Under the pieces are notes generated by a model. It was not told the DNA's origin. It made no database searches and saw only the letters and a program-made list of their open reading frames with translations. The position numbers and the translations under genes are program-made. A DNA stretch of 64,000 nucleotides. Source: Haemophilus parainfluenzae (GTDB lineage Bacteria > Pseudomonadota > Gammaproteobacteria > Enterobacterales > Pasteurellaceae). This document shows, piece after piece, positions 36,949 to 37,641 of this stretch. Position 1 is the first letter of the stretch; each line of letters begins with the position of its first letter. Location: positions 186,001-250,000 of the forward strand of contig NZ_UGHY01000002.1 in assembly GCF_900450995.1 (NCBI RefSeq). The letters are read 5' to 3'.

Positions 36949-37308
36949 TTACAAATCAAGTGTGAAATCAATATCAATGGAACGATAAGTTGGCATTAAA
37001 TAAAAACGCATTGGCGCAATAAAAAAGCGTTTTTCTTCAAAGAGACTTTCGATGTCATTAATATAAATTGCGCCATTTGCACGATAAGATTTCGGTAATT
37101 TTTGGCGTGGGGATTCAAAATCCGTTAATTCGTGAATAGGCTGAACTTCGGTGCCGGCATGCGCAATAAAGAAATAAAGCAAGCCTGCATTTACGGCATT
37201 GTCATCTTGTTCGGTAATCCGAAAGCTTTATGCACTTCACTACAAGCGGCCATACAAGTGTTGCATCCAATGCAATCCTTCGGATCTCCGATTACAAAAC
37301 GATTCATA
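36949..37308 (-). pseudogene. Chimeric relic: hyfA 5' end, hyfB internal scrap, neuA/siaB 3' end
   Basis: Read on the minus strand, 37308 to about 37216 encodes MNRFVIGDPKDCIGCNTCMA and on to HKAFG, the first 31 codons of a second hyfA with its own strong ribosome site (AGGAGGGGAA). It then joins out of frame to [20 protein letters not shown], an internal HyfB segment (HyfB has [18 protein letters not shown]). That segment joins in frame to [30 protein letters not shown] and [10 protein letters not shown], the C-terminal part of a CMP-N-acetylneuraminate synthetase (NeuA/SiaB), ending at its stop at 36949. The hyfA part differs from the functional hyfA at roughly 14 of 93 positions, mostly synonymous. 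It is thus a diverged second copy, not a recent duplicate. Nothing here is likely to be functional. Confidence 0.85.
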
Positions 37309-37641
37309 CATTCCCCTCCTTGTATGTAAATAACGTTTTTACAATAACCACTCTGCCTATAAAGATACTCCTATGAAAAAGTAAAGCTAAAGAAATAATT
37401 CGAAAATTTGTGATTAAGATCAAAAGATTTTCACTGCTGTAATATAACTGTTAAACCATCGTAAAATTTAATAATTTTATGTTAAAAAACTAAATAAATT
37501 TTAAATAAATATTACCTTTATTATCTTCTAACCTCACTATACAAATTTGTAGGGTTACATGATAAAATTCTCTCATTAAAGTAGGTTTATTGAGATACAA
37601 TAAACTACTTATCTCATAAATATTACAACTAGGGACAGATT
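37306..37641. other. Spacer with relic hyf promoter and hypC promoter
   Basis: The left part repeats elements of the functional hyf promoter: AATAACCACTCTG (37343-37355), GATACTCCT near 37368, and an FNR-like site. The right part is AT-rich and leads to hypC with an AGGGACAG ribosome site. An inverted repeat, TGAGAT (37591-37596) and ATCTCA (37611-37616), lies just before hypC. Confidence 0.6.
37410..37423. promoter_or_regulatory. FNR-like site between relic hyfA and hypC
   Basis: GTGATTAAGATCAA matches the FNR consensus TTGAT-N4-ATCAA with one mismatch. It lies near position -42 relative to the conserved promoter block of the relic hyfA. It may now serve hypCF, which starts about 220 bp away in the opposite direction. 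Confidence 0.6.

Follow-up and report, generated by a model that had tools for sequence, protein, structure and literature searches.

Why does a broken start of the hydrogenase-4 (hyf) operon lie beside hypC in this Haemophilus parainfluenzae genome, when an intact-looking hyfA stands 10 kb away? The DNA analyzed (the window, 64,000 nucleotides) is part of a 2.24-Mb genome (G000). The initial annotation had read the 480-base scrap as coming from another lineage, probably by transformation, or as an old second hyf operon that was later deleted. We searched 140 genomes of the family with positions 36900-37700 and obtained matches in 74 of them. The window's genus (g1, the H. parainfluenzae group) is represented by 11 genomes, including H. 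parainfluenzae C2008003258 (G077) and Haemophilus sp. HMSC068C11 (G080), and H. parainfluenzae was sampled as species representatives. The donor genus (g19, the H. haemolyticus group) is represented by 10 genomes, including H. haemolyticus M19501 (G058) and M19187 (G060), and also takes in H. seminalis SZY H1 (G067) and H. quentini K068 (G066). HyfB, HyfD, HyfF, and HypF passed the NCBIfam cut-offs and HypC (HupF_HypC) and HycH were Pfam matches; the names HyfA, HyfC, HyfE, HyfG, and HyfI are presumptive, from gene order and general knowledge.

The relic does consist of three parts, as annotated, each of them far above chance. In a search of the own genome, the hyfA piece (37214-37316) matched 26793-26895 at 85% (E 2e-27) and the hyfB piece (37154-37217) matched 25727-25790 at 83% (E 8.5e-12). 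The neuA piece was 96-97% identical to nine of the ten donor-genus genomes and 85% identical to the tenth (G067), with a best E of 2.7e-121; the full-length donor NeuA matches solved CMP-N-acetylneuraminate synthetases (1eyr_A, E 2.3e-58). Leaving hypC on the minus strand, the relic runs from hyfA' through hyfB' and the neuA' 3' end to a terminator, and the region was assigned as follows (in window coordinates).

36892..36908, minus strand: terminator of the imported neuA, an inverted repeat common to the donor genus and terminator-like on both strands
36919..37155, minus strand: imported 3' end of neuA/siaB, ~79 codons (donor NeuA residues 146-225)
37154..37217, minus strand: native hyfB remnant, codons 154-175, 64 bp (base identities)
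37214..37307, minus strand: native hyfA remnant, codons 1-31 with the start codon (base identities)
37308..37430, minus strand: native hyfA upstream region with an FNR-like site (alignment)
37431..37641, plus strand: hypC-proximal upstream region, an unusually diverged allele (identities)
37642..37917, plus strand: hypC, native (HupF_HypC; 85-92% identical to the native genomes)

Over residues 146-225, neuA' is 95% identical to the donor NeuA in G000 and 98% in G077. Bases 36949-37153 agree with G059, G060, and G061 at 197-199 of 205 positions, and homology to the donor (G060) starts at 36886, covering the terminator and the neuA tail. The neuA 3' end had been recognized correctly, but its length had been set too short at the last 65 or so codons, as the tail reaches 36919. 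In the window, neuA' is interrupted by an in-frame TAA at 36949-36951; the frame of G077 stays open as far as the neuA end. Reading of the frames agreed with the annotation in that hyfA' is out of frame with hyfB', and hyfB' in frame with neuA'. The reported difference of about 15%, mostly silent, between hyfA' and the intact-looking copy was also found: 13 of 93 bases differ, giving 13 synonymous and 0 non-synonymous differences over 31 codons. The hyfA' of G077 carries two amino-acid changes. The scrap would most likely make nothing, because the 31-codon hyfA start is followed by an early stop and the hyfB-neuA frame has no start of its own.

We then compared both copies with the two genera. 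In eight of the 11 genomes of the window's genus, hyfA and hypC lie in one unbroken match (query 315-801 at 81-83%), in line with the earlier suggestion that hyf once stood directly against hypC. A ninth genome (G079) has hyfA and hypF adjacent, ~340 bases apart, and G000 and G077 have the relic arrangement. hyfB' was 97-100% identical to all eight native genomes. For base-by-base comparison, four of the eight (G072, G073, G080, and G081) served as the native panel and six donor-genus genomes as the donor panel. hyfB' agreed with G081, G073, and G080 at 64 of 64 bases, with G072 at 63 of 64, and with the six donor-genus genomes at 50-53 of 64; hyfA' (37218-37307) agreed with each of the four natives at 87 of 90 bases (97%) and with the six donor-genus genomes at 76-77 of 90. 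Diagnostic sites were defined as positions uniform within the four natives and within the six donors but different between the two groups (n = 1,178 in 13001-27345). The window was donor-type at 685 of 696 such sites in 19700-25830; in 17301-19699 it was native at 166 and donor-type at 7 of 181 sites. With 12 of 76 sites donor-type in 16427-17300, the native left side is not entirely clean. The hyfB and hyfG trees (34 rows each, built by a quick method with SH-aLRT support only, without bootstrap) placed the window and G077 inside a nine-row clade of the H. haemolyticus genus for hyfB (SH-aLRT 100) and grouped the window with H. parainfluenzae for hyfG (SH-aLRT 99). The flanks, meaning hyfG and leftward and hypC/hypF and rightward, are H. 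parainfluenzae-type save for scattered donor-type sites at 16.4-17.8 kb.

From these sequence comparisons we concluded that the relic is a native scrap and that the intact-looking hyf copy 10 kb away is mostly foreign. Exchange between lineages, probably by transformation, is upheld, but its direction is the reverse of that first proposed, the relic hyfA and hyfB being native. That the relic is instead foreign, having been part of another lineage's hyf operon or of a deleted second operon, is barely credible: it would fit the 13 silent changes in 31 codons, but the relic matches the hyf of its own genus at 97-100% and that of the donor genus at 78-86%, and the intact-looking copy goes with the donor in the trees and at the diagnostic sites. 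To save this reading, replacement would have to have struck the native panel as well. An old second hyf operon also finds no place, since the identities make the relic native and a search of the own genome gave, besides the scrap, no second HyfB (two further hits were 29-30% matches at the hyfF and hyfD places). According to the identity profile, the diagnostic sites, and the trees, resident hyf genes have been replaced by orthologs of another lineage, and the flanking genes remain native. The relic is very probably the scar left when an H. haemolyticus-type import took over from part of the native operon at its own locus.

Donor-type DNA (hyfF to hyfA, the adhesin gene, and the neuA 3' end) fills 19.71-37.15 kb, ~17.4 kb in all, with native hyfG onwards kept to its left and the native hyfA' and hyfB' scraps kept to its right, beside hypC.

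19686..19709, no strand: left junction in homologous sequence, within the last ~32 codons of hyfF (diagnostic-site switch)
19709..27345, minus strand: imported hyf genes of H. haemolyticus type, from hyfA into hyfF (most of that gene), and their upstream region (diagnostic sites, identity profile, hyfB tree, upstream alignment)
25834-25915, 26171-26200, and 26254-26621, minus strand: native tracts inside the import (diagnostic sites)
27346..36669, minus strand: giant trimeric autotransporter adhesin, read as import cargo (ESPR, YadA head, stalk, anchor, and Trp-ring domains)
37154..37155, no strand: joint J1, neuA/hyfB, with a shared CC (2 bp) and no wider homology, an illegitimate joint
37214..37217, no strand: joint J2, hyfB/hyfA, with a shared GTAA (4 bp)

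The gene order of this block is also found in the donor genus. G061 and G059 carry hyfA, a giant ORF whose beginning resembles the window's adhesin, and neuA on one strand, and in G060 hyfA and neuA are ~410 bases apart without an adhesin. The neuA tail is present in all ten donor-genus genomes and a hyfA match in six of them; the two are linked in three of the six (G059, G060, and G061), in G058 both lie at contig ends, and in G066 and G067 they are on separate contigs. Relatives with neuA next to hyf, as the initial annotation expected, do therefore exist, in the donor genus. The further proposal that neuA was once the native neighbor beyond hyf fails, as the other nine genomes of the window's genus have no close neuA: eight gave a weak N-terminal hit of 29-30% and G079 none, and G073, one of the eight, has in addition a full-length relative at 31%. 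The adhesin start, spacer, and neuA end (36530-36960) are collinear with G061 (86%) and G059 (83%) along their full 431 bases, and G067 has a 93% match over 325 of the 431 bases at another place; in the other nine g1 genomes this segment gave matches of at most 47 bits over ~45 bases (seven of nine) or none (two of nine). Given the collinearity in the donor genus and the near-absence in the other g1 genomes, the adhesin and the neuA tail are best read as belonging to the same import as the hyf block, with the adhesin as cargo. The adhesin ORF is 3,107 aa from an upstream TTG, and the start matching the relatives lies 16 codons later (~3,091 aa). The same slot holds ORFs of 3,932 aa in G061, 3,956 aa in G059, and 2,316 aa in G077; the difference between ~3,091-3,107 aa in the window and 2,316 aa in G077 suggests that the gene was altered after the import or came from other donors. 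Two similar terminator-like inverted repeats flank the slot (27299-27316 and 36892-36908), the one near 27.3 kb containing an uptake-signal core. Since the hyf upstream region of G060 runs straight into the neuA repeat, the adhesin may come and go by recombination between the two repeats.

The two ends of the block differ in kind. On the left, the last native site is 19699 and the first donor site 19709, within homologous sequence of hyfF; on the right, J1 joins neuA to hyfB outside homology. At J2, 1,006-1,007 bp are missing relative to the four native genomes. G077 has the same relic and the same J1 and J2, with 98% identity over 801 bases. A protein search with the fused frame found seven proteins among 13 candidates. 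Two of them start with the hyfB-neuA fusion, namely P0001, which matches at 94% over 93% of the query and whose entry gives 106 member sequences and 1 contig, and P0002, at 88%, with 1 member and 2 contigs, and the fusion was not seen in the remaining five. The joints in G077 and the fusion peptide in P0001 and P0002 thus argue against an assembly error, and by the two proteins the junction is not private to this genome. We also considered insertion of a mobile element and rejected it: the block ends inside hyfF and neuA, and its two ends share no words beyond chance. The longest words common to the 210 bases round the block ends (7 direct, 8 inverted) were within the range of 300 random pairs, and no recombinase was recognized by eye among the listed ORFs of the block, small ORFs lying outside the scope of this check.

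One homologous end and one end with few shared bases resemble homology-facilitated illegitimate recombination (HFIR), described, as outlined in PMC3240628, in natural transformation of Streptococcus pneumoniae, Acinetobacter baylyi, and Pseudomonas stutzeri. Most of the joints outlined there have 3-10 bp of microhomology, and J1 with 2 bp falls below that range (J2 has 4 bp); the inserts there are ~1 kb with deletions of similar size, in selected laboratory events, whereas here we have a natural fossil with an insert of ~17 kb, in which the resident DNA would at first have been partly duplicated and not deleted. J1 could also be a secondary deletion, if a longer donor piece first lay between hyf and hypC and neuA was later fused to hyfB. 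J2 looks like a simple deletion, an event that typically also leaves joints of 2-4 bp; but the donor match stops at 37155 in this locus (none was found beyond it), and an extra step would be required, so we regard a secondary origin of J1 as possible though rather unlikely.

If J1 was made by the import itself, the events may be ordered as follows. Donor DNA would have entered by natural transformation. Its hyf end would have recombined by homology in hyfF, and its neuA end would have been joined to native hyfB at about codon 175 through 2 bp; such a homology-facilitated illegitimate recombination would leave a partial duplicate, made up of the native 5' part of the operon. This duplicate would have converted parts of the imported hyfA and hyfB, and a deletion of ~1,006 bp between two GTAA motifs would later have reduced it to 31 + 21 codons. 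The interval missing from the relic corresponds to 25791-26792 (1,002 bp); it contains all three native tracts and 57 of the block's 61 native-type sites, which suggests that the native segment was still present after the import. The chance of such a placement is 215/6,400 = 0.034 for a rigid cluster and 0.0016 for independent tracts, in a post hoc test whose interval is set by the relic but whose idea arose once the tracts were known. G077 has one native run in the block (26458-26621), with the same right edge as that of the window. The likeliest course is one in which the native 5' part survived at first as a partial duplicate and converted parts of the import before the J2 deletion shortened it. 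The reverse order, in which the native operon first lost 1,006 bp and became inactive and an import then restored it under selection, appears unlikely. It gives the same final sequence, and both joints are common to the window and G077; native tracts lying only in the interval missing from the relic speak against it, even though another strain could have supplied them.

Some observations on G077 do not fit a single event. The window and G077 are unpaired in the hyfB tree, their left joints differ (19699/19709 in the window vs 19178/19191 in G077), the hyfG of G077 falls outside the H. parainfluenzae clade, and more donor patches occur in G077 near 16.6 and 18.7 kb. These misfits imply that the block was exchanged again after the joint had formed or that different donors were involved.

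For the route of entry, we looked at uptake signals, with a core motif that we take from general knowledge. One core lies at 19686-19694, 5-23 bases from the left joint. By raw counts, the hyf part of the import has 0.92 cores per kb, the flanks have 0.48-0.56, and the adhesin gene has 0.11 (one core in 9.3 kb). Transformation is probably how the donor DNA came in. In laboratory transformation of H. influenzae, tracts of ~19.5 kb with several donor segments clustered in one tract have been outlined (Mell et al., 2014, PMC4059242); the 17.4-kb block with its clustered donor segments is similar, and differs from that outline in that the exchange is between tool-defined genera (from the H. haemolyticus to the H. 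parainfluenzae group) and has one joint outside homology.

Next, we examined whether the retained upstream region could still be of use. The annotation had described an FNR-like hyfA promoter. A site at 37410-37423 has one mismatch to what we take to be the FNR consensus and is unchanged in five of six aligned rows, G077 being the exception, so conservation of the FNR-like site holds up; a sigma-70 scan of 36600-37700 gave five promoter-like sites against a shuffle mean of 6.2, no excess, and the relic promoter is thus argued from conservation. An element CAATAACCACTCT-n5-TAAGGATACTCC (plus strand) occurs at 26953-26984 and 37341-37372 and is altered in the relic. It is found upstream of hyfA in the four native and three donor-genus genomes aligned, and is possibly a regulator site. 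Over the 27 bp (37346-37372) common to the native and imported hyfA upstream regions, the relic has 5-6 changes, compared with 0-2 among the four natives, as expected if the relic promoter no longer matters, although all of these changes are common to the window and G077. Closer to hypC, 37431-37641 is 71-72% identical to the four natives (85-96% alike among themselves) and 98% to G077. No better source was found in the 140 family genomes, the best outside G000 and G077 being 76%, save for short matches; this region thus resembles neither the native nor the donor source well, and is a misfit of the present reading. Could the native upstream region and hyfA start still work, in hypC control or as a leader, and be kept by selection? 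The FNR-like site is intact in the window, and the peptide encoded by the 31 codons does not differ from that of the intact-looking copy; against this, the 27-bp element is altered in the relic, G077 has the changed FNR-like site along with its two amino-acid changes in hyfA', and the hypC side has diverged. We consider retained function very improbable.

As for the operon as it stands, the imported upstream region (26.9-27.35 kb) precedes the intact-looking hyfA-F, followed by native hyfG onwards. The operon would be read from this imported region and encode a hybrid hydrogenase-4 complex. With imported hyfA-F followed by native hyfG onwards, the complex would have mostly imported membrane subunits and native catalytic subunits, on an assignment of Hyf subunits to the two arms that we assume from general knowledge. 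HyfA itself is a mosaic whose sequence is native from about codon 89. One could speculate, as an improbable reading, that the swap was kept as a membrane-arm module, with imported HyfB-F working with native HyfG onwards and a native formate dehydrogenase, the adhesin riding along, and that the joint is widespread in H. parainfluenzae (P0001, 106 members). If this were true, an allele now common in the human commensal population would go back to a single illegitimate transformation event.

In xenologous gene displacement in situ, a resident operon is replaced at its own locus by the version of a relative. The hyf operon was likewise swapped at its own locus, with the difference that a remnant of the displaced copy still lies next to its replacement. 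The process is a known one, in which resident genes are displaced by DNA of a relative, probably by transformation and with one illegitimate joint, and here we have a clear natural case. Chromosomal exchange between Haemophilus species, linked to uptake signals, has been reported for murF-murE-ftsI (PMC10928409); that is another locus, and the abstract of that report mentions neither an illegitimate joint nor a relic. A description of an event like the present one was not found in the titles and abstract openings that searches of an open-licence library on Haemophilus gave. For this one inter-group Haemophilus transfer, we can read the native copy that was displaced, the gene arrangement of the donor, and each of the two joints, which makes the order of steps testable in strain collections. 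The case also shows that a large adhesin gene can travel by means of homology to a metabolic operon, and it is a caution that a broken copy can be native and an intact copy foreign.

A few other observations were made in the window and its relatives. HyfF of G073 (L046) is 75% identical to that of the window, as are those of A. kilianii PN_528 and G079, and the other compared natives are at 85-86%; the 75% values hint that hyfF was replaced more than once in the group. At 13189-15348, two ORFs in the same frame are split by a TGA in the context CCARV-TGA-HGP, presumably a selenocysteine motif, and are probably one formate dehydrogenase H gene (fdhF) with selenocysteine. A two-partner-secretion exoprotein start (ESPR and TPS domains) at 2122-4771 is seemingly broken into short ORFs and adjoins a transporter-like ORF. 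A second large surface-protein-like ORF (49181-56419; 2,412 aa) carries an ESPR signal and, in a long array, near-identical repeats resembling SAASSATEAGKSAT.
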